DNA from: a virus
Length of the DNA: 23,001 bases
Direction: 5' to 3' (one strand)
IMG/VR virus record: IMGVR_UViG_3300048011_000266
Location: 1 to 23,001 of that record
Shown: piece by piece, positions 7,966-20,359 of the stretch
Layout: each line of letters begins with the position of its first letter
Numbering within the stretch: the stretch's first letter is position 1
Notes under the pieces: generated by a model
Told to the model about the DNA's origin: nothing
The model's input: only the letters and a program-made list of their open reading frames with translations
Database searches by the model: none
Program-made: the position numbers and the translations under genes

Positions 7966-8789
7966 GCCTGTGTTTCCTGTAATATGTGCCAAGCAGTTCC
8001 GTCTTCCATTTCTGCTTGCGTAAATTGTGAGTACGACAAGTGTGTTAAGAAAGAGTGCATTTCGTCTTCGGTTGGTATTCTAGGATTTTCTAGATTTGCT
8101 AGATTGGTTTCGCAAATCAACTGTGCAGCATTTGGTCCTAGAGTAATTGCAGGCTTGCCTTCCATCAATGCTTCTGTTGCTGCAATACTATTGTATGTGA
8201 TCAAACAATGTACATCATCTTGTAAGGCGTCTTGAATAGTTTTTGTGCTGATACGTTCACTTCTAATAGGCTTCATTCTAATTTCAATAGGACGATCAGT
8301 GAGTGTTTTTAACTGTGTCACTAACTTATCTGTCCACTCTTTGGCAGTACCTTGATTAAACATATTCATAACCTTGTTACTAGGCGGACATACTAGTATT
8401 TTTCTTCCAGAAGTAAATGGTTTATAAATTTCTTTCCACGACTTTTGCAACTGTAATTCAAGTCTATCAACAGGATAAACTTTTGTATTATTCATATTTT
8501 GTAGGGCATTATAAGTGATTCGATGCCATATCTTATGTTTGGAGTTGCCGAAGTAACCAGTGTCAATAGCATAAAATGGTCTACCAGTTGCCCAGCATTT
8601 TTTAATAGCTTTTTGACTTCCGCCGCCGAGTCCTCTAATAATTAAAGTGCTACTTGTATGCTCTTCATTTTCCCAACTTGATTCTAAACCGTTAACGCCT
8701 TTTATAAAACTCCGTAAATAAGGATCGTAATCATGACCTTTTTTTGCAAAATTTGCGCCGCTAGTATCTATCGCTGCTACCTTACCCAT
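7962..8789 (-). CDS. capsule-synthesis-like glycosyltransferase, paralogue 3
   Basis: The 275-residue protein starts at ATG 8789, overlapping the upstream transferase by 8 bases. It opens MGKVAAIDTSGANFAKKG and contains a glycine-rich IIRGLGGGSQKA near residue 50. It then has the shared blocks KILVCPPSN, LTDRPIEIRMKP, TYNSIAATEALMEGKPAITL and MEDGTAWHIL. Here the HP pair of the other two copies reads KP, so a putative active-site or donor-binding His is replaced. The block arrangement still matches GT-B capsule-type transferases. It is the most divergent of the three paralogues; it could have a different donor or be a non-catalytic partner. Confidence 0.7.
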   Translation of the reverse strand: MGKVAAIDTSGANFAKKGHDYDPYLRSFIKGVNGLESSWENEEHTSSTLIIRGLGGGSQKAIKKCWATGRPFYAIDTGYFGNSKHKIWHRITYNALQNMNNTKVYPVDRLELQLQKSWKEIYKPFTSGRKILVCPPSNKVMNMFNQGTAKEWTDKLVTQLKTLTDRPIEIRMKPIRSERISTKTIQDALQDDVHCLITYNSIAATEALMEGKPAITLGPNAAQLICETNLANLENPRIPTEDEMHSFLTHLSYSQFTQAEMEDGTAWHILQETQA

Positions 8790-9456
8790 TCATCATCGCC
8801 TGTAGTTCTTCTTTCCAGCGTAAACTAAACTCGCAGTTTCTATAATTTTCAAACCACGGTCCGCCTTCTGTGTAGTGTATTAATTTAGGAATTTCGATAT
8901 CATCATATACTCCTACTAGATAATTCCATGTGTGATGTAGCTCGCCGATCTCTTCATCTTTAAGCCAACTAAATCTATGAAAGTATGCGCCGTTTAGTTC
9001 CGGATCGTTTACCATATCTTGTGTAAGTCTTGCATTGCTAGGATGAGCACAGTTGAATAACACAACACTTGACCAGTTTTTGCGTGGATAGATTGTTTGC
9101 TTTTGTCCATCCATCTTCATACCTTCTTTAGGTGTGTAATCGTGTTGTACACACATAACAGCCTTTGAATCATCTACTTGATCAAATAATTCTTTAATGT
9201 CTGTAGTAAGGATCATGTCGCAATCCATAAACACTGCCCAGCCTTTGAAGTTAGCAAGTTCTGGTACTAAGAAGCGTGTAAATGTAAACTCAGTACTTGC
9301 AAGTTTGTCTTTTGGCCGTGTATACCAACCTGCGTCACGAAGTTCTTTTTGTATTAGTGGGCGTACAATTGCTTCCGGTTGTTTTGTTAAGATGCTGTGT
9401 TTACACACTTGATATGCAATATCTTCTCTTGGATCATAACCTACAAATACTTTCAT
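8782..9456 (-). CDS. GT8-like glycosyltransferase
   Basis: The 224-residue protein begins MKVFVGYDPREDIAYQVC. It contains STEFTFTRFLVPEL, a DxD motif in AVFMDCDMI near residue 79, WSSVVLFNC and a closing HYTEGGPWFENY near residue 195. The DxD and the H-x-x-x-GG-PW pattern are those of family 8 type GT-A transferases, which add hexoses to lipopolysaccharide cores or similar acceptors with retention of configuration. It has no membrane segment. Its ATG overlaps the stop of the nucleotidylyltransferase-cupin gene by one base (TAATG), and its stop region overlaps the next transferase, so it is the second gene of the chain that follows the late promoter at 10235. Confidence 0.83.
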   Translation of the reverse strand: MKVFVGYDPREDIAYQVCKHSILTKQPEAIVRPLIQKELRDAGWYTRPKDKLASTEFTFTRFLVPELANFKGWAVFMDCDMILTTDIKELFDQVDDSKAVMCVQHDYTPKEGMKMDGQKQTIYPRKNWSSVVLFNCAHPSNARLTQDMVNDPELNGAYFHRFSWLKDEEIGELHHTWNYLVGVYDDIEIPKLIHYTEGGPWFENYRNCEFSLRWKEELQAMMNG

Positions 9457-10229
9457 TAATCTCTTCTTTCAATATCTTCTTCATAACACACACCCCATTG
9501 TATTTCTAGTATGTGTGCATTTATATCACTGGGATTACTTGCTTTATGCCAAACTTCTTTTCCGATTTCATAAGGCCTAGAGGATGACTGGAGGTGTGTA
9601 ACATTTTTCAGTGAGTTATATTCGGTATCCATTTTTACAGTACCTGATAACACTTGCCATTGCTCTGAACGTTCAAAGTGTTTTTGATCACTTAGTGATT
9701 TGCCTGGATAAATTACAAGCTCTTTTACCTTGTAACCTTTGTCTGGTGCGTCATCTAGTACACGCCAGTAGCCCCAGTCACGTTCAGTCTTCTGTGTTTT
9801 CCACTCGTCTAGTATCCAACTACTGCTGTTAGCTTTGTTACTGCCGCCAACTTTCCACGCAAACTCTACATCAGGAGTATTGCCATATGTAGCGTATTCT
9901 GGTGTAGTTTTATTTGTTCTATCGCCGCCATTAGCAAACACAACAGTCCAGCTACTGCCTTTAGTAGCAAGTACTTGACCTATTGCCATGCAAGCACTTC
10001 CGTCATCGTCGTTAAATCCGATAACTTCGTCGACACATGCAAGTTCTTTAATAATTTCTGCACGTTCTGTAAAGGACATGAAAGGCTTACCCTTTTTACG
10101 AGTAAGCCAATCATCTGAATTAACACCGACTACTAAGTGATCACCAAGTTCTTGTGCTGCTTTAAAATATGCTATGTGCCCTGAGTGTAAGGGATCAAAG
10201 CCTCCAGTTACTAATACTACTTTGCTCAT
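9456..10229 (-). CDS. sugar-phosphate nucleotidylyltransferase fused to a phosphomannose-isomerase-type cupin
   Basis: The 257-residue protein has two domains. Residues 1 to about 140 form an HxGH nucleotidylyltransferase: GGFDPLHSGH at 9-18, VVGVNSDDWL, FTERAEII and NGGDR near 100, closest in style to RfaE-type heptose-phosphate adenylyltransferases. Residues about 150-257 form a cupin like the C-terminus of type II phosphomannose isomerases: WGYWRVL at 152-158, YPGKSLSDQKHFERSEQW starting near 174, SGTVKM and the closing EIQWGVCYEEDIERRD. One polypeptide therefore could isomerise and activate a sugar for the downstream transferases; the exact sugar is unknown. The gene starts at ATG 10229, five bases after TATAAATA, with no Shine-Dalgarno sequence in front. 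Confidence 0.85.
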   Translation of the reverse strand: MSKVVLVTGGFDPLHSGHIAYFKAAQELGDHLVVGVNSDDWLTRKKGKPFMSFTERAEIIKELACVDEVIGFNDDDGSACMAIGQVLATKGSSWTVVFANGGDRTNKTTPEYATYGNTPDVEFAWKVGGSNKANSSSWILDEWKTQKTERDWGYWRVLDDAPDKGYKVKELVIYPGKSLSDQKHFERSEQWQVLSGTVKMDTEYNSLKNVTHLQSSSRPYEIGKEVWHKASNPSDINAHILEIQWGVCYEEDIERRD

Positions 10230-10234
10230 ATAGA

Positions 10235-10242
10235 TATTTATA
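10235..10242 (-). promoter_or_regulatory. T4-type late promoter before the glycan gene chain
   Basis: TATAAATA, the exact T4 late promoter -10 word, is on the minus strand in the 37-base gap upstream of the nucleotidylyltransferase-cupin gene. Only five bases separate it from the ATG at 10229. Because T4 late transcripts start about six bases after this word, the predicted first base is the A of the start codon. The rest of the gap is AT-rich with no hairpin. Confidence 0.72.
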
Positions 10243-10266
10243 TGCGTAGTTTAATATAACATATAA

Positions 10267-10968
10267 TTATTGATTGTTTGATAAATCTTTAAAAATGTCT
10301 TGTATAGGTGTAATATCAAATGTGTTATTAAAGAATACTGGCTGATCTACAGTTGACAGTACTGCATCTATTTGCATACTTTTAAAATGATCATAAAATT
10401 TTGTCCCGTCACCTTTTATATTATCCGAAAATCTAACCCAAGCAGCTGGAATATTATATGCATGTGCTGCTATAATTCCGTGTAAACTACTGGATATAAT
10501 ATTTCTACATTTTGATATTTCCTTAGCAACTTCCAATGGATTTGTATTTACAACATTTATGATTTTGTAATTTAGATATTTTTCTTTAACTAGTTTGTAA
10601 TCAACAAAGTGAGGCACGATGCCTACGTCATACTCTTTTTTGCTTTCATCACAAAATAGTGGAAGTAATAGTGCAGGGTCGCCATAAACTTCTGGACAAT
10701 TGCCGCCTGCTGCAATTACTTTATTTCGTGTTAACGGTCCTCTAACAAATTTATAATTTGCATTTGGATTTAACTTTTCTTTAGATTTCATTATTCCAGA
10801 ACCTAGTACAGTGACATTATTACTAGCTCGTCTGGCAATCGAACCTATACAAATTGTATCAGCATGTTCCAGCGATGTAAAATTATATGTTATATTAAAA
10901 TGATCCAACAAGTAAGGAGTTAAAACATCGCCGAAGTTATTATCCTTTGTGTACCACCATATTTTCAT
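10267..10968 (-). CDS. polysaccharide pyruvyltransferase-like protein
   Basis: The 233-residue protein matches the polysaccharide pyruvyltransferase family, which ketalises sugars of exported polysaccharides using phosphoenolpyruvate. Visible blocks are NFGDVLTPYLL at 10-20, VLGSGIM, FVRGPLTRNKV, VYGDPALLLP and ISSSLHGIIAAHAYNIPAAW. The SLHG and GDPALL motifs are the family hallmarks. It is shorter than most bacterial members (roughly 300 or more residues) but keeps both halves. Some family members transfer other groups, so pyruvyl is the likely but not certain donor. Its ATG overlaps the stop of the GT25 gene by one base (TAATG). The next gene starts after a 37-base gap holding a late promoter. 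Confidence 0.87.
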   Translation of the reverse strand: MKIWWYTKDNNFGDVLTPYLLDHFNITYNFTSLEHADTICIGSIARRASNNVTVLGSGIMKSKEKLNPNANYKFVRGPLTRNKVIAAGGNCPEVYGDPALLLPLFCDESKKEYDVGIVPHFVDYKLVKEKYLNYKIINVVNTNPLEVAKEISKCRNIISSSLHGIIAAHAYNIPAAWVRFSDNIKGDGTKFYDHFKSMQIDAVLSTVDQPVFFNNTFDITPIQDIFKDLSNNQ

Positions 10969-11654
10969 TAATTTTCCTTTAGATTACGTGTTAAGCTTTC
11001 TGACCTTATATTATTTCCTATTGCATAAAATGGATGTAGTCTTGCTAAACTCGGAATAGTAGTTCTAGTATCAACTACCCAATCGCCAATTTGCTGATCT
11101 GCTGGCACATGTCCATTTTTCTTAATATGATTAATTAATTTTTTTGCGCCAGATGGCTTTACTATATATGCATATGCACCTTTAAAATAGTTGCCTGTTC
11201 CAATTTTATCAGGATTTTTATTTTGTAAATTTGTATACTTTTCTATAGAAAGTTGCAACGTTGATTCTTCTTCTAATACTTTATTATAAGAATTACTGTA
11301 AGGATCGCATCTATCTAGTTTTAATACATCTTCAAATGTATCCAATATATCAAATGGTAATGATTTCATCATATACCCATCATGTTCCAAAATAACAAAA
11401 GGTGTATTGGTTTCTATGCATTTTACCCATAGATAGTAATGACTAAAGAAACATCCTAATACACCAATCCGTCCTTTTTTCATTTTTCTTTTTGGCAGGA
11501 TGCCTGTTTTTTCATAGTGAAATTTTACATCATTGCCGTCAATCGCATCAAAATAAACTGGAGATAATCCGTGCAATATGGCTTGATCAAAGCAATCTTT
11601 TGCCATATTGCACGAATGTTTATTTTCTTTAAGGCGTATAATATATGCCTTCAT
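10968..11654 (-). CDS. GT25-type glycosyltransferase
   Basis: The 228-residue protein resembles family 25 lipopolysaccharide glycosyltransferases (LgtB/LpsA type). It begins MKAYIIRLKENKHSCNMAKD and has FDAIDGNDV, RIGVLGCFFSHYYLWVKC near residue 62, and FVILEHDGYM near 86, where the usual acidic metal-binding triplet EDD reads EHD. Near the end KGAYAYIVKPSGAKKLI matches the family's later conserved block. The start at 11654 overlaps the upstream gene by ATGA, tying this glycan gene into the uvsX chain. Use of Asn, Lys and Tyr is high compared with the upstream recombination genes, which may indicate later acquisition. The acceptor is unknown. Confidence 0.85.
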   Translation of the reverse strand: MKAYIIRLKENKHSCNMAKDCFDQAILHGLSPVYFDAIDGNDVKFHYEKTGILPKRKMKKGRIGVLGCFFSHYYLWVKCIETNTPFVILEHDGYMMKSLPFDILDTFEDVLKLDRCDPYSNSYNKVLEEESTLQLSIEKYTNLQNKNPDKIGTGNYFKGAYAYIVKPSGAKKLINHIKKNGHVPADQQIGDWVVDTRTTIPSLARLHPFYAIGNNIRSESLTRNLKEN

Positions 11655-14632: not shown

Positions 14633-14660
14633 GTTAGCAGATTAACGTAAACCTGCTAAC
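14633..14660 (-). terminator. possible terminator at the end of the 627-residue gene
   Basis: Perfect 8-base arms GTTAGCAG and CTGCTAAC flank a 12-base loop that contains the stop codon. A T-rich stretch follows on the minus strand after about nine bases. The stem is short and the T run displaced, so this is a weak candidate. It could instead be an mRNA-end stabiliser. Confidence 0.4.
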
Positions 14661-16525
14661 TCTCTCATTCTGTCATAATCGCCTGTGTCTGGTGCTTCCA
14701 TCTGCTGTGGTTGGTTGCGCATTTGGAACTCTTCAAACTTTGCGCCTATTTGTTCGATAAATGCCTTGGCAGGTTCTATGAACTGCTCGCCATAATCTTT
14801 TTCAACCATAGTTAATACTGCTGTTTCGCCTTTTGGAAATTCACCCGTTTCTCTATCAAAGTAACTAAGAATAAACTCGCCTAATGGTGTCTTTTGTTCT
14901 TTTTCTTCGTGACCGTCATCTTTACTAATTGCGCCATCTTTATCGATCTTAACGTCCATAGTGTCGTCATCTTCGTCTTGATTAAAATCGTGTGCATCAA
15001 TATACTGCATTACAGGATATAATGTGTTTACAATTTGATTACCAAAGCGAGCATTTTTACCTGACCCCGGCTGAGTTTCTAATTTCTTTGCTTCGCCACG
15101 TAATGTCATCATGTCATCAATTGCTGCTTTGAAGTTTTTATCAATGCCTTGAAATCCATTTGTATTTGATTCGATCCATGTATATACATCCCATGTATCA
15201 CTAACATATTCGTTTGCTAAGTTACCGTCGTACTCGCCATCGCCTGTTTCAATCTTTTTGCCTTTGCCGCGTAATACGCCTAGCGCATCACTTGCATCTT
15301 TGCTAGTTTTAATATATGCTTCTTGTACATCGTCCTCGTTTGTGTCACATTCGCAAGGTGCGCAATTACATTCTTCGCACTCTTTAGCTTCTGCAAACTG
15401 ACCCATCATTTCTTCAAAGCCTTGCTCTAGTGCAATCTCTTCTGGCACACATTTGTTTACACGCTTGCCTTTGTTCTTACCTGTGCCAGCTTGTGTGCCA
15501 GCTTTTTTATAACCATCCCAGCACTTGTCTGGTCCTGCTACTTCTTCTAAGTCGTCCGGGCCTAGTTCTTGTGCCTTTGTTGCTTCGCTTACTAGTTTAT
15601 AAATGTATGGGAATACATCTGCTAGTTCTTCATTAAACTGTTTGATAGTTAGTTGGTCAATCCAATTCTCTGCAACATCACTTGGAACATCTTCCAACAT
15701 CGGCTTTTCAAATGCAGCAAATGTTTCTGCATAGTAAGCTGGCTTCTGAAGGCTCTCAATTGTTTTCTTAACTGTAGCAATACGTTCTTTAACAACATCT
15801 ACATATCCTGCTAGACTTTCTGCCATCACAGCTGAACGGCCCATGTAGTTTTTAAACTTACGTAGTTTGCCCATTTCTTCTGACAACCCTATAATGTGTT
15901 TGCCAAAATCATCATAAGCGTTTCCGCCTTCAGCAACATGTCTTGCCATTGCTCTTGCACCACTTAGGTGTTTGAATGGATAACGGAATCTTTCGCCGTC
16001 GGCACTTTCAATATAAATTTTACCAATTTTTTGTGTGCGTCCTGTTGCACTTTCTTGGTTAATACTTTCTGTGTGTTTAACCACAATACGTGCTTCGCCT
16101 ACTTTTTGATAGCTAATACGGCTAGTGCCATAAAGTTTTGATTCTGTCATTTGTCCGTCCTCAGGGGGTTTCGCTAAGAATTTATAATCTCTTTTTGTTA
16201 AATTTGACTTTGTAATATCTCTTACGCTGTAATCCAGCATACGCTTTTTACTAAACACACGCAGTTCTTTTAAGAAGTCATACCACGCATCTTGCGTCAT
16301 TTCGTCTTGATCTTCCATAAAGTCTTTACTGTATATAACAGTTAAGCCTTCATCTTCGTCTAAGCTTAAACTTACTTTGCCTAACCCATTATAATCAAAA
16401 TCAAAGAAACGAGCCATACTCGGCTCATTAGTAACTGTTCCAGTCTCGTCACCTATTGTAACTTCTGGAAAACGTCCTCTTATCTTGTTAAAAAGGTCTT
16501 CGCCTATTTTGTCAAATTCTTGCAT
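14642..16525 (-). CDS. large probable virion protein with cysteine motifs
   Basis: The 627-residue protein has no named function. It lies between gp17 and gp32 and is probably a head or virion component, as similar large acidic proteins in marine T4-like phages are. Visible features are a CWDGYKK motif at 335-341 paired with NKC at 357-359, a cysteine cluster C383, C386, C388, C391, C393, and an internal duplication: LRGKGKKIET near 418 and LRGEAKKLET near 475, each followed by a matching aromatic V-x-x-[WY]-I-[ED] segment. The tail is acidic and ends MRELAGLR. The ATG at 16525 is four bases after GATAAATA and lacks a Shine-Dalgarno sequence. No enzyme motif was seen. Confidence 0.75.
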   Translation of the reverse strand: MQEFDKIGEDLFNKIRGRFPEVTIGDETGTVTNEPSMARFFDFDYNGLGKVSLSLDEDEGLTVIYSKDFMEDQDEMTQDAWYDFLKELRVFSKKRMLDYSVRDITKSNLTKRDYKFLAKPPEDGQMTESKLYGTSRISYQKVGEARIVVKHTESINQESATGRTQKIGKIYIESADGERFRYPFKHLSGARAMARHVAEGGNAYDDFGKHIIGLSEEMGKLRKFKNYMGRSAVMAESLAGYVDVVKERIATVKKTIESLQKPAYYAETFAAFEKPMLEDVPSDVAENWIDQLTIKQFNEELADVFPYIYKLVSEATKAQELGPDDLEEVAGPDKCWDGYKKAGTQAGTGKNKGKRVNKCVPEEIALEQGFEEMMGQFAEAKECEECNCAPCECDTNEDDVQEAYIKTSKDASDALGVLRGKGKKIETGDGEYDGNLANEYVSDTWDVYTWIESNTNGFQGIDKNFKAAIDDMMTLRGEAKKLETQPGSGKNARFGNQIVNTLYPVMQYIDAHDFNQDEDDDTMDVKIDKDGAISKDDGHEEKEQKTPLGEFILSYFDRETGEFPKGETAVLTMVEKDYGEQFIEPAKAFIEQIGAKFEEFQMRNQPQQMEAPDTGDYDRMRELAGLR

Positions 16526-16543: not shown

Positions 16544-18124
16544 TTAATAGTTTGAACTTATAAAGATAGGCATAGGTGCTTCATAATCTTCCATATCTTC
16601 AGCTTGTGTAAATGTGTTATATATTCTAGGATCCCAATCTTTGAGTACTGCCATCATACGTAGTGCTAATAATGTTGCACTTACTAGGTCATCGCTCATT
16701 CCGCTTTTTGCCTGGAAACTGCTCCCGGTTGCGACATATCCTTTAAGTTCCGAAATCAGTGGTTTACTATGCAATGTCATTTTGTCGCCCTCGATCATAG
16801 TTTTAAGTCTACTACAGGCTGTAATTTTAGTACCATGTGTGGTGTTAAATCCTTTGCGGAACTTCCTTACGTGTCCTTTACGCATTGGTTCACTTACGAA
16901 TAGTCCCGGAATGTTTTCTTCACCAAAGTCATTAATAACAAGTAAGCATGCTTCGCCGATACCATTATTTTCAACACTCCAGTAGATACCATTAGTATTA
17001 TTGGTTTCTTGTTGCAAGTACTTGCATATATCTGCAAGTACTCTTATTTGTCCAGGTATTGCAGTTTGATTATGTTGCCACTCTGCTACTTGTTCGTAAC
17101 TAGGCAATTCAAATACCTGAATAGCAGCGTTGTCGCCACCGGTACCCATGCTAGGATCAAGTGCTACTGCATATGTATATTGCGGTGAAGGTTTTTTATA
17201 CCAGCGTGTTTGTCCCATATTAAGCACAGGACTTGCACCTTCCATAGTAGCAAGTTTAAGACTATTGATAAGTGTTTCATCAAATACTAGGAATTCGCAA
17301 CCATATTCTCGTCGAAACTTTTCTTCACCGATACGCCCAACTTCTTCTACTTTCCACGCTTCGTCACGATCCGGATGTTCATCCCATTGTGCAACAAAAC
17401 TATGAAAGCCGTTTGATCCTAGCTCCTGCTCATTGCCGTGTGCATCAAATTTGTCTTCGGCTTGTTTCCAGATAGTAGCAAATGTATCTTCATCACTGTT
17501 AGGTGTGCTTGTAATAATAGCACGGCCACCTGTTGCTAGTGTAGGTGATATCGAAGTCCAAAACTCTTCAGCGATGTTAGGTTGCACAAATGCAAACTCG
17601 TCACAGTATAGTAGCGAGATACTCATACCACGTCCTGTGTTGCCTGTTGTTGTTTGTGCTACAATACGTGAACCGTTTTCAAATTCAATTGATTGTTTGT
17701 TATAACTTGTAACACCTGCTCTAATATGATCAGGACAAGTTTCATACACAAAGCGTATACGTGACATAATCTCTTGCGCACCTGTGTATTTGTGTGCAGC
17801 AACTAGAATAGTTTGGTCTGGATTAAACATTGCATACCAAGCAAGATAGATACTAGCACATGTAGTCTTACCTGTTTGTCTAGGCATCATGTTAATGTTA
17901 AAACGATAGTTGTGATAACTGTGCATCAACCGCAGCTGATATTCAAAAGGATCAAACAATAACTTGCCTTTTACAGGGTGTTGAATATATGCAAACTTGC
18001 GAGCAAAGTACAAATACCCCTCGTCAGGATCCATACATTTCATCAAGTCTTCAACTTGTTCATTTGTAAATGTTTCTTGTTTGTTAGCTTTCTTAATAAG
18101 AACGCCGTCTAATGATGCTGCCAT
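16544..18124 (-). CDS. 17: large terminase subunit, packaging ATPase and nuclease
   Basis: The 526-residue product is the gp17 motor (T4: 610 residues) that cuts concatemeric DNA and pumps it into the prohead. Walker A PRQTGKTT is at 81-88, Walker B with catalytic Glu LLYCDE at 171-176, and the coupling motif TSTPN at 205-209. The nuclease domain follows with ALDPSMGTGGDNAAI, WSVENNGIGE and SGMSDDLVSA supplying the acidic triad. I chose the ATG at 18124; the frame stays open to 18178, but that extension would translate through the terminator hairpin at 18142-18165. No Shine-Dalgarno sequence precedes it; AGTAAATA ends four bases upstream of the ATG. Confidence 0.96.
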   Translation of the reverse strand: MAASLDGVLIKKANKQETFTNEQVEDLMKCMDPDEGYLYFARKFAYIQHPVKGKLLFDPFEYQLRLMHSYHNYRFNINMMPRQTGKTTCASIYLAWYAMFNPDQTILVAAHKYTGAQEIMSRIRFVYETCPDHIRAGVTSYNKQSIEFENGSRIVAQTTTGNTGRGMSISLLYCDEFAFVQPNIAEEFWTSISPTLATGGRAIITSTPNSDEDTFATIWKQAEDKFDAHGNEQELGSNGFHSFVAQWDEHPDRDEAWKVEEVGRIGEEKFRREYGCEFLVFDETLINSLKLATMEGASPVLNMGQTRWYKKPSPQYTYAVALDPSMGTGGDNAAIQVFELPSYEQVAEWQHNQTAIPGQIRVLADICKYLQQETNNTNGIYWSVENNGIGEACLLVINDFGEENIPGLFVSEPMRKGHVRKFRKGFNTTHGTKITACSRLKTMIEGDKMTLHSKPLISELKGYVATGSSFQAKSGMSDDLVSATLLALRMMAVLKDWDPRIYNTFTQAEDMEDYEAPMPIFISSNY

Positions 18125-18128
18125 ATTG

Positions 18129-18136
18129 TATTTACT
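18129..18136 (-). promoter_or_regulatory. variant late promoter before gp17
   Basis: AGTAAATA on the minus strand matches six of eight positions of TATAAATA and lies four bases before the gp17 ATG, directly after the terminator T run. The spacing equals that of the exact words at 10235, 16530 and 21935, which is the main reason to report it. TAAATA words also occur inside genes, so on its own this one is weak. Confidence 0.45.
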
Positions 18137-18137
18137 C

Positions 18138-18165
18138 AAAAAAATAGAGCCCGAAGGCTCTATTT
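18138..18165 (-). terminator. intrinsic terminator with UUCG loop upstream of gp17
   Basis: A perfect 10-base-pair stem (AAATAGAGCC with GGCTCTATTT) closes a TTCG tetraloop on the minus strand and runs into seven consecutive T. The UUCG loop is an unusually stable cap. It ends transcription from the acidic-protein gene and separates it from gp17, which then needs its own promoter. Confidence 0.88.
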
Positions 18166-18184
18166 GGTGTAACCCCACCGTAGT

Positions 18185-18796
18185 TTATTTTTTCTTAAAT
18201 TGCGGAGGTACTTCACCTTTTTTAGGCTTTTTACCTTTTGCTAAATCGTTTTTACCTTTGCCATCTTCTGCGTAATCCGGAATACCGTTTTTGTTAGCAT
18301 CTGGCTTTTTCTTTTCTTGCAGTGCAGCCATTAGCGTTGCTTTAATTGCTTCAACAGCCATTGGATTGTCGCCGTCTTGTGTGGCAGCATATGCTTTCTT
18401 TTTGCGGTTTAAGTCGTTACCATCTGGAATAGCGTCACTCATGTCGCCGTATTCTGGATCTGGTTCGTTAGCGTAATCGCCTTCGACTTCAATTTCATCT
18501 TCTACTTCTTCCATCTCTGGTTCGTCTGCTGGAGCATCCATCATTGCTGACAGTCTTTCCATGTCCATACGTGGTGAAAGTGTTTTAGCACCAACTGGTT
18601 CTGCGCCACCCAGTCCTGCATTTTTCATCATGTCTAGCAAATCAGCTACATGTTCTTTACCACTTGCATTCATGCTAACATTTACTGTTACTGGATTGCC
18701 TTTGTCCATTTCTGGCGCTGGTAACGATGCAGGCATCTCTGTCATTCCACACTCTTCAATGTGATCCATTGATTCGATTAATTTTTTCATATCCAT
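18185..18796 (-). CDS. acidic protein with a calcium-loop-like motif, possible head component
   Basis: I do not know the function of this 203-residue protein. It begins MDMKKLIESMDHIEECGMTE and contains VTVNVSMNASGKEHVADLLD, a pattern I recall from uncharacterised marine phage proteins. A Met- and Glu-rich acidic middle follows. The last 40 residues carry DANKNGIPD at 166-174, a D-x-N-x-N-G-x-x-D loop like those that bind calcium in EF-hand and thrombospondin-type repeats, then a basic Lys-rich tail. AGGAGG at 18805-18810, eight bases before ATG 18796, lies in the end of the upstream gene. Charge pattern and position between terminase genes suit a scaffold or internal head protein. Confidence 0.72.
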   Translation of the reverse strand: MDMKKLIESMDHIEECGMTEMPASLPAPEMDKGNPVTVNVSMNASGKEHVADLLDMMKNAGLGGAEPVGAKTLSPRMDMERLSAMMDAPADEPEMEEVEDEIEVEGDYANEPDPEYGDMSDAIPDGNDLNRKKKAYAATQDGDNPMAVEAIKATLMAALQEKKKPDANKNGIPDYAEDGKGKNDLAKGKKPKKGEVPPQFKKK

Positions 18797-18800
18797 AATT

Positions 18801-19358
18801 TCAGCCTCCTACAACTGCTTTTGTATTTTCTGTGTCACCAATGTCTGACGACTCTCCAACTGGAGCGCCTTCCGCGCCACTGTGCTCATTTTCTTTACGA
18901 GCAGTTTCTAATTCTTTTAGTAAACTCATTACTCTTTCGCCTGCAACATCTTTCTGTGCAGTTTCGCCGCCCATGTCTTCTTTGGTCAACATTGCTTCGT
19001 ATGGAGCACTATCGTCTATTTCTTGATATTCTTCTCTAGGATCATTTGCATTACGTACAATAATATATGCTTGATCAATGCCGCAGCACTTGCCTACATA
19101 TTCTTGTAACACTTGACTAGTAGTTGGATATTCTAATTCTGTTTCAAAATATGTAACTTCCATATTTTGTAATTGTGGAAAGTCTAGTGGGCGTTCTTGT
19201 ATTGGTGTTTTCTTTCCTGATGTCATATTAGAAACTTTAAACTTTTTAAGTATTGTTTCTAGTGTGTCAGTAAACCCTTCGGGAAGAACTCCGGCGACTC
19301 CTATTTTAAATTCATAAGTCTTTTTAGACTCTGTTAGTAATTGTGTAAATGATCTCAT
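18801..19358 (-). CDS. probable internal head protein with capsid-targeting N-terminus
   Basis: The 185-residue protein begins MRSFTQLLTES. This aligns position by position with the capsid-targeting peptide of T4 internal proteins (MKTYQEFIAEA): basic, S/T, aromatic, two aliphatics, then Glu before a small residue. LLTE-S also fits the prohead protease gp21 rule, [L/I]-x-E followed by a small residue, so cleavage after E10 is predicted. The body YEFKIGVAGVLPEGFTDTLE, DFPQLQNMEVTYFETEL and DQAYIIVRNANDPR looks like a compact alpha/beta domain, ending in a flexible acidic tail. I do not recognise a catalytic motif. The ATG sits within a 14-base palindrome, and a late promoter is 28 bases upstream. 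Confidence 0.75.
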   Translation of the reverse strand: MRSFTQLLTESKKTYEFKIGVAGVLPEGFTDTLETILKKFKVSNMTSGKKTPIQERPLDFPQLQNMEVTYFETELEYPTTSQVLQEYVGKCCGIDQAYIIVRNANDPREEYQEIDDSAPYEAMLTKEDMGGETAQKDVAGERVMSLLKELETARKENEHSGAEGAPVGESSDIGDTENTKAVVGG

Positions 19359-19385: not shown

Positions 19386-19892
19386 TTATTTATCTTTATC
19401 CATGCCTTTGAGCTTTTCTAAAAGACTGTTTCTGTCTGTAACAACATAGCCGGCACCATTGACTATATCGCCATCATTAGGCCCGGCACTATCGTTATCC
19501 ATCTTTTGTTTTTTAAGTTGTAGTTCTACTACTTTTAATTTATTATTAAGTTTAGCAACTTTAGCATCTAAACTAGTTTTAAGCAATCCGCCGGCAGTTT
19601 CAAATACTCTGCCGCTGTAACGACTTTCAACATTCATACCTAGGTCCATTAAATCTTCATATGCTTGCATTGCTTTGTCTGCAACTTCATTAAGCTCGTC
19701 ATCGGCCATTTTGCCTAGGCCTTTTATAGCAGGCAATGCACTAGCAATTTTATCAAACTCTTCTATGTCACGGAATGTTTCAGCTACATTAGCCATTTCG
19801 TGTTTTGTTTGCTCTGCTTCTTGAACTTCTGCCTGTTCTATAATTTCTTTTGAATCAGGTAAATTTAGTAGGTCTTCTAATTTTTTTGTCAT
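19386..19892 (-). CDS. 16: small terminase subunit
   Basis: The 168-residue protein matches gp16 of T4-like phages (T4: 164 residues), the ring-forming partner that regulates the gp17 ATPase and nuclease and recognises the DNA to be packaged. It is helical throughout, with ADKAMQAYEDLMDLGMNVES near the centre, RYSGRVFETAGGLLKTSLDA at about 92-111 and the long coiled-coil KVAKLNNKLKVVELQLKK directly after. That RYxGR-to-coiled-coil order is the recognisable part in marine relatives. A GATAAATA word lies 26 bases upstream of the ATG at 19892. Two genes separate it from gp17 in the direction of transcription. Confidence 0.85.
   Translation of the reverse strand: MTKKLEDLLNLPDSKEIIEQAEVQEAEQTKHEMANVAETFRDIEEFDKIASALPAIKGLGKMADDELNEVADKAMQAYEDLMDLGMNVESRYSGRVFETAGGLLKTSLDAKVAKLNNKLKVVELQLKKQKMDNDSAGPNDGDIVNGAGYVVTDRNSLLEKLKGMDKDK
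19387..19394 (-). promoter_or_regulatory. late promoter overlapping the gp16 stop codon
   Basis: GATAAATA on the minus strand is formed by the last codons of gp16 (GAT AAA TAA) and reads into the following gap. It lies 28 bases before the ATG at 19358, giving a normal leader of about 20 bases for the probable internal head protein. Confidence 0.6.
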
Positions 19893-19918: not shown

Positions 19919-19926
19919 TATTTATC
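19919..19926 (-). promoter_or_regulatory. late promoter overlapping the gp4 stop codon
   Basis: GATAAATA on the minus strand overlaps the TAA of gp4 and lies 26 bases before the gp16 ATG. A TATAAT word a few bases downstream could also act as a host-type -10, but no good -35 accompanies it. Confidence 0.6.
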
Positions 19927-20359
19927 TTCTTCTGCCTGTATGGAAGATATCGTCTTCAGTAACTATACGGAATATTATGCCTTTTTGTTTACACCAGGCA
20001 CGGGCGGCTTCCCATTTGGCTTGATTGACAATCCAATGTGCTTGATTGTGTTTACTATTTCCTAAACGTTCTTTATGTGATTGATTAGCTGGTTTAACTT
20101 CGATGAGTTCTACACGTTTTTTAGTACTCTTATCTGCATAGGAAATAAAGAAGTCAGGTACATAAACGGTTTGTTTGCCAGTTAGCGGATTGCGGTAAGG
20201 TATACGCACAGCTTCACTTGCCCATTGTTCTATTGCAGGATGTTCGTCACAGAATTTCATAAAAGTAAATTCCCATCCTGAACGATAAGTAGGAGTTTTA
20301 GTTCCTATATATTTTTCTGGATTTTTTAGATTAAATTTACCTTGTGCAAATCTAGACAT
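19922..20359 (-). CDS. 4: head completion protein gp4, TnsA-like nuclease fold
   Basis: The 145-residue protein matches T4 gp4 (150 residues; also called gp50/gp65 region head completion protein), needed to finish DNA-filled heads before tails join. It begins MSRFAQGKFNLKNPEKYIGT, followed by YRSGWEFTFM at 25-34, then VPDFF at 67-71 and IEVK at 86-89. The PD followed by ExK is the PD-(D/E)xK nuclease signature with E30 as a possible further acidic ligand, as in TnsA-type endonucleases. That suggests trimming of DNA ends at the portal, an inference from fold. The ATG at 20359 is one base after the preceding stop. Confidence 0.9.
   Translation of the reverse strand: MSRFAQGKFNLKNPEKYIGTKTPTYRSGWEFTFMKFCDEHPAIEQWASEAVRIPYRNPLTGKQTVYVPDFFISYADKSTKKRVELIEVKPANQSHKERLGNSKHNQAHWIVNQAKWEAARAWCKQKGIIFRIVTEDDIFHTGRRR

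Follow-up and report, generated by a model that had tools for sequence, protein, structure and literature searches.

The gene at positions 18801-19358 (minus strand) of the window, which is the whole stretch of DNA analysed and the entire 23-kb viral record, encodes a 185-residue virion structural protein of the family phrog_14802. We propose, with a probability of about one half, that this conserved protein, which has a predicted ferredoxin-like domain, is a minor component of the head (core) and is processed to its mature form by a gp21-type protease, in a lineage of the T4 superfamily. According to this proposal, the amphipathic N-terminal decapeptide would anchor the precursor to the core of the prohead or to the inner shell, and the phage's gp21-type protease would then cut after E10 (LTE↓S, the arrow marking the cut). 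The acidic mature protein, comprising residues 11-185 with the ferredoxin-like domain, a helix and a flexible tail, would then form part of the completed head, either internally or close to the portal. Lineages lacking E10 would retain the helix, as happens in the T4 D10 mutant. The proposal gives a testable assembly signal to a virion protein that is conserved and named but has no assigned role, and it raises the question whether T4-style decapeptide targeting extends to jumbo phages.

A conserved gene of the head and packaging cluster

The open reading frame starts with ATG and its product begins MRSFTQLLTESKKTYEFKIG. Against PHROG, residues 1-142 of 185 match phrog_14802, "virion structural protein", at E 3.5e-10, and this family, assigned to the category head and packaging, is matched by all 36 of the family members scanned; the window protein has no match above cut-off in Pfam, NCBIfam or PADLOC. 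Several hundred relatives occur in viral contigs, and homologues are encoded by the isolates RaK2, K64-1, 121Q, PBECO4, CBB, GAP32, PA5oct, Vibrio 2.275, Atu_ph07 and Phosso; a search of the viral contigs with the PA5oct homologue found none. The family is already known, and it occurs in a lineage of the T4 superfamily to which the RaK2/121Q/CBB/PA5oct jumbo phages belong. The proteins CBB_210, RaK2 ORF047, 121Q gp557 and PA5oct EST35_0202 are homologous to the window protein over residues 1-142 at about 23-30% identity.

In the order of transcription, the window carries genes for a tail tube protein, a tube-like protein, a 113-aa protein, the head-completion protein gp4 (19922-20359, minus strand), a gp16-like protein (19386-19892, minus strand), the phrog_14802 protein, a 203-aa protein with no assigned function (18185-18796, minus strand; 200-359 aa in relatives), the large terminase gp17 (16544-18178, minus strand), a 627-aa protein, gp32, UvsX and UvsY, and the gene was correctly described in the earlier note as adjoining terminase and head-completion genes. 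The gp16-like gene matches phrog_16202, a family of unknown function, and we take it to encode a small terminase only from its position and a resemblance; comparison of its product with solved structures gave nothing useful. The gp32 and UvsX genes are presumably such, by resemblance. Protease and capsid genes are absent from the 23-kb window. The 203-aa neighbour, which has no family match, contains apparent repeats of an MKK(L/I)(I/L)E(S/N)MD-like motif. Elsewhere in the window, a sugar cluster (88-861 and 8782-11654) encodes a DAHP/KDO-8-P synthase-like enzyme, glycosyltransferases of families 8 and 25, a cytidylyltransferase fused to a mannose-6-phosphate isomerase-like domain, and a pyruvyl transferase.

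This setting is stable across the family. The gp16-like gene lies immediately upstream of the homologue in 106 loci, and most isolate-phage homologues show the order gp4, one further gene, then the homologue; gp4 and the gp16-like gene precede the homologue in CBB, RaK2, 121Q and PA5oct as they do in the window, whereas the downstream genes differ, with gp17 located elsewhere in 121Q and CBB. In some relatives an additional gene separates the homologue from the gp16-like gene (L136:7301-7975, L068:7140-7982). Members of the window's clade differ little in length (185-187 aa), and median identity over 119 loci is 78.9% for the phrog_14802 protein, 78.0% for the gp16-like protein, 82.1% for gp4 and 89.8% for gp17, so that the protein behaves like a core gene product whose identity to relatives tracks that of gp4 and the gp16-like protein.

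The earlier note had taken the product for a candidate injected head protein, possibly with an anti-defence role. The corresponding reading, that of a T4 IP-type internal protein which is packed into the head in many copies, is injected along with the DNA and inhibits a host defence, is in our estimate very improbable. The T4 internal proteins are not highly conserved (PMC9026906), unlike the window protein, which is conserved to the degree of gp4 and the gp16-like protein and is fixed in its synteny. Because the gene changes slowly and keeps its place, an anti-defence role is unlikely. The lack of a PADLOC match points the same way only weakly, since that library covers defence rather than counter-defence. 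The gene's constant position, flanked by the gp16-like gene on one side and by the 203-aa gene and gp17 on the other, and close to gp4, favours an accessory of the connector, neck or packaging machinery that would work at the portal alongside gp4, gp16 and gp17 and carry an N-terminal docking helix that is normally left uncut. We regard this as a possible reading, although an unlikely one, for reasons that lie in the virion data and in the N-terminal peptide.

Homologues in virions

Members of the family have been found in virus particles. Mass spectrometry of CBB virions identified CBB_210 from 13 unique peptides that cover 60.5% of its sequence (PMC5259590 Table 4), the record of PA5oct EST35_0202 bears a note of ESI-MS/MS virion detection, and phAPEC6 gp270c (16.20 kDa) was identified in virions from 4 unique peptides covering 41.1% of its sequence (PMC7247149 Table 1). 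The last protein is assigned to the family by gene order and mass: the 121Q homologue (gp557, L102:8001-8534), when read from Met38, has 141 aa and a mass of 16,204 Da, which fits gp270c and suggests that the phAPEC6 gene is annotated with too late a start, at an internal Met38. If the N-terminus is placed at Met38, the true one would be missed in the phAPEC6 proteomics. The Atu_ph07 record AUZ94910 (L149:6001-6756) also appears to be annotated from an internal Met and for that reason lacks the propeptide; its frame extends upstream to MKTLQDYLTESKK.

These detections place the homologues in the virion and not specifically in the head, and a neck or tail location is compatible with them. The earlier note's suggestion of an uncharacterised structural protein is supported by these homologues as to "structural", whereas the family itself turns out to be a known one. 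The detections agree with an internal protein of the IP type. With regard to the portal accessory, the phAPEC6 virion table (PMC7247149) lists gp270c but not the gene numbers at which gp4 and the gp16-like protein would be expected, which argues against that reading.

Two of the phages concerned, 121Q and phAPEC6, also possess an inner body whose make-up is unknown (PMC5646251, PMC7247149), and both encode a phrog_14802 homologue. The inner body of phiKZ and of 121Q/phAPEC6 is among the closest known systems, although in sequence the phiKZ inner-body proteins do not resemble those of phAPEC6 (PMC7247149). The phrog_14802 protein is one candidate among many for the 121Q/phAPEC6 structure, and it is highly doubtful that, in jumbo phages of the 121Q/RaK2 type and the marine phages related to them, it is a gp21-matured part of the inner body (or of its prohead precursor) that enters the cell with the DNA.

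The N-terminal decapeptide and its candidate cleavage site

The case for prohead targeting and gp21 processing, which we consider plausible, begins with residues 1-10 (MRSFTQLLTE; 19329-19358, minus strand), a candidate propeptide defined by sequence comparison and modelled as a helix over residues 4-10. It is followed by a candidate gp21-type cleavage site between E10 and S11 (LTE↓S, residues 8-11; junction codons at 19326-19331, minus strand), which conforms to the L/I-x-E rule for gp21 (PMC9026906); the reading frame, the MRSFTQLLTES start and the fit to this rule are all as the earlier note had them. Its statement that the start mirrors MKTYQEFIAEA of T4 internal proteins is, against IPIII (record X04567, in which residues -10 to -1 are marked as removed), true of the register, which fits at positions 4 (F/Y), 7 (L/F), 8 (L/I) and 10 (E), and not of the identity, which is 2/11 (M1 and E10 only). 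In the IPIII decapeptide, targeting depends mainly on positions 4 and 7 and processing on positions 8 and 10, and aspartate at position 10 blocks processing while targeting is kept (PMC9026906).

T4 gp24 is an essential shell protein of the HK97 fold. Its first ten residues are removed by the prohead protease, and it forms the shell vertices (PMC9958956). The gp24 peptide MAKINELLRES is nearer to that of the window, with an identity of 5/11 and the same LLxE↓S ending, so that, judged by these short alignments, the candidate tag appears to resemble the gp24 peptide at least as much as those of the injected internal proteins; no relationship was found between the body of the window protein and HK97-fold gp24. 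Because a shell protein carries the same kind of decapeptide, such a peptide does not define internal proteins: it is the mark of a prohead protease substrate, shell proteins included, and not necessarily of an injected effector. Other family members are as close to IPIII as to gp24, or closer, and the form MKSFTEFLTES of some relatives is identical to MKTYQEFIAEA at 5/11 positions. Together with the shared register, this favours an IP-type protein, as do the weak further matches of 14/36 members to phrog_2667, the "internal head protein" family of IPI-IPIII, which span approximately residues 1-40 at E 0.003-0.2 (best 0.0032). These matches also count in favour of the head-protein reading that we propose. 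For the window protein itself no phrog_2667 match is listed at E up to 1, and its body has no match to the IP family.

It is doubtful that the likeness to T4 propeptides is a chance resemblance or a generic amphipathic start on a virion protein located elsewhere in the particle. In favour of that explanation are the low identity to IPIII and the strict T4-propeptide pattern, which in G001, a 200-kb relative, has 1 match among 198 genes, on the phrog_14802 homologue, with 0.3 expected by shuffling (P 0.27), and taken alone is weak. When all gene starts are scored without gaps against the IPIII and gp24 peptides, the homologue ranks 1/194 in G001 and 2/359 in a second relative, G004; in PA5oct and 121Q the same comparison places it fifth or sixth at best. 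One search returned 75 distinct homologues, with L/I8 in 75/75 and E10 in 74/75; as it was unable to catch PA5oct and RaK2, the count for E10 becomes 74/77, the exceptions being RaK2 (D10), PA5oct (A10, also Y8) and Phosso (S10). Homologues with as little as about 25% identity still show the pattern. Because of the first rank in G001 against both T4 peptides and the presence of E10 in 74/77 homologues, the match, as far as sequence comparison goes, is more than chance.

On T4 itself, as a positive control, the pattern falls on two internal proteins, on gp61.1 and on gp24. Beyond the homologue, it recurs on no other protein in G001 and on one in G004; in PA5oct it falls only on an unrelated protein, and the scaffold-position protein of 121Q also fits it. 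T4 employs its decapeptide on several proteins and these phages do not, which speaks for the chance explanation and against the core-protein reading that we prefer. The scaffold at the gp22 position of 121Q (L181:14438-15553; 121Q 334438-335553) starts MSKLEKLLKES, identical to the T4 gp24 propeptide at 6/11 positions and first among 598 gene starts. When N-termini are compared more broadly within each genome, neither gp22 nor gp23 stands out, which also counts against the core-protein reading.

A protease of the required type is present in the lineage. Peptidase_S77 scores above cut-off in G001, G002, G003, PA5oct, 121Q, Vibrio 2.275, CBB, RaK2, Phosso and Atu_ph07, that is, in 7/7 isolate genomes tested and three contigs; it was not found in five other viral contigs, possibly fragments. 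Likely junctions in the major capsid protein (gp23) of relatives have the form (L/M/F)xE or (L/M)E, with S, T or N as the next residue, as in LSE↓T, LSE↓S, LTE↓S, LRE↓S and LVE↓N. For 121Q, a cut after LTE in LTE↓S gives a computed capsid protein of 37.24 kDa, and the observed change is from 42.2 kDa to about 37 kDa (PMC5646251).

The loss of E10 in PA5oct, RaK2 and Phosso means that cleavage is not universal among the relatives, and the PA5oct homologue is in the virion although it lacks this residue. The lineages without E10 still begin with a hydrophobic stretch, in accordance with an uncut docking helix at the portal. In the window's own clade, however, nearly all members keep E10 and S/A11, and a docking helix alone would need neither. 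A propeptide on the phrog_14802 protein is proposed here as a new candidate feature; no description of one was found in the open-access papers searched.

Predicted structure of the mature protein

The alpha/beta domain that the earlier note could not assign is modelled as ferredoxin-like. The AlphaFold2 model, built from 36 sequences taken from the window and from viral contigs, has a mean pLDDT of 64.6 (about 80 for residues 11-100) and consists of the short helix 4-10, a beta-alpha-beta-beta-alpha-beta domain at approximately residues 14-105 (19044-19319, minus strand), within which a conserved KKTPIQERPLDF loop occupies residues 49-60, a helix at residues 140-158 predicted with low to middling confidence (18885-18941, minus strand), and disordered linkers and tail. 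The fold search returned common ferredoxin-like folds alone (ribosomal S6, ACT domains; best Z 8.3), and sequence searches of solved structures with the window protein returned none. These folds are too common for a function to be read from them, and a plain small alpha/beta module of this kind would also suit a portal accessory. A weak fold match to a protein of Serratia phage phiMAM1 was rejected as a relative, the profile search of that genome, run with no positive control, being empty.

The mature protein has a computed pI of 4.53 and a charge of -14.4, compared with a pI of 9.65 and a charge of +10 for IPIII. Acidic rather than basic, it departs from the T4 internal proteins in this respect too. 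Taken together with the decapeptide shared by gp24, the conservation and the fixed place in the head and packaging cluster, this leaves injection and an anti-defence role unsupported.

In relatives, the labels gp67 and gp22 denote positions beside gp21 and gp23. The C-terminal tail ENTKAVVGG (18804-18830, minus strand) resembles the C-terminus of the gp67-position core protein of relatives, the likeness being the best of 193 in G001 with a close runner-up; as the pattern was chosen after being seen, and was not reproduced in PA5oct or 121Q, a tail shared with that core protein is suggestive only. A separate C-terminal likeness concerns the 627-aa protein 3' of gp17 (14642-16525; phrog_13484, virion structural; 528 to 940 aa in relatives), which ends in MRELAGLR, similar to IRRLAGLN of the gp22-position scaffold protein in relatives. 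In G001, only 2/194 genes have such a motif in their final 25 residues, namely the homologue of the 627-aa protein and the gp22-position scaffold.
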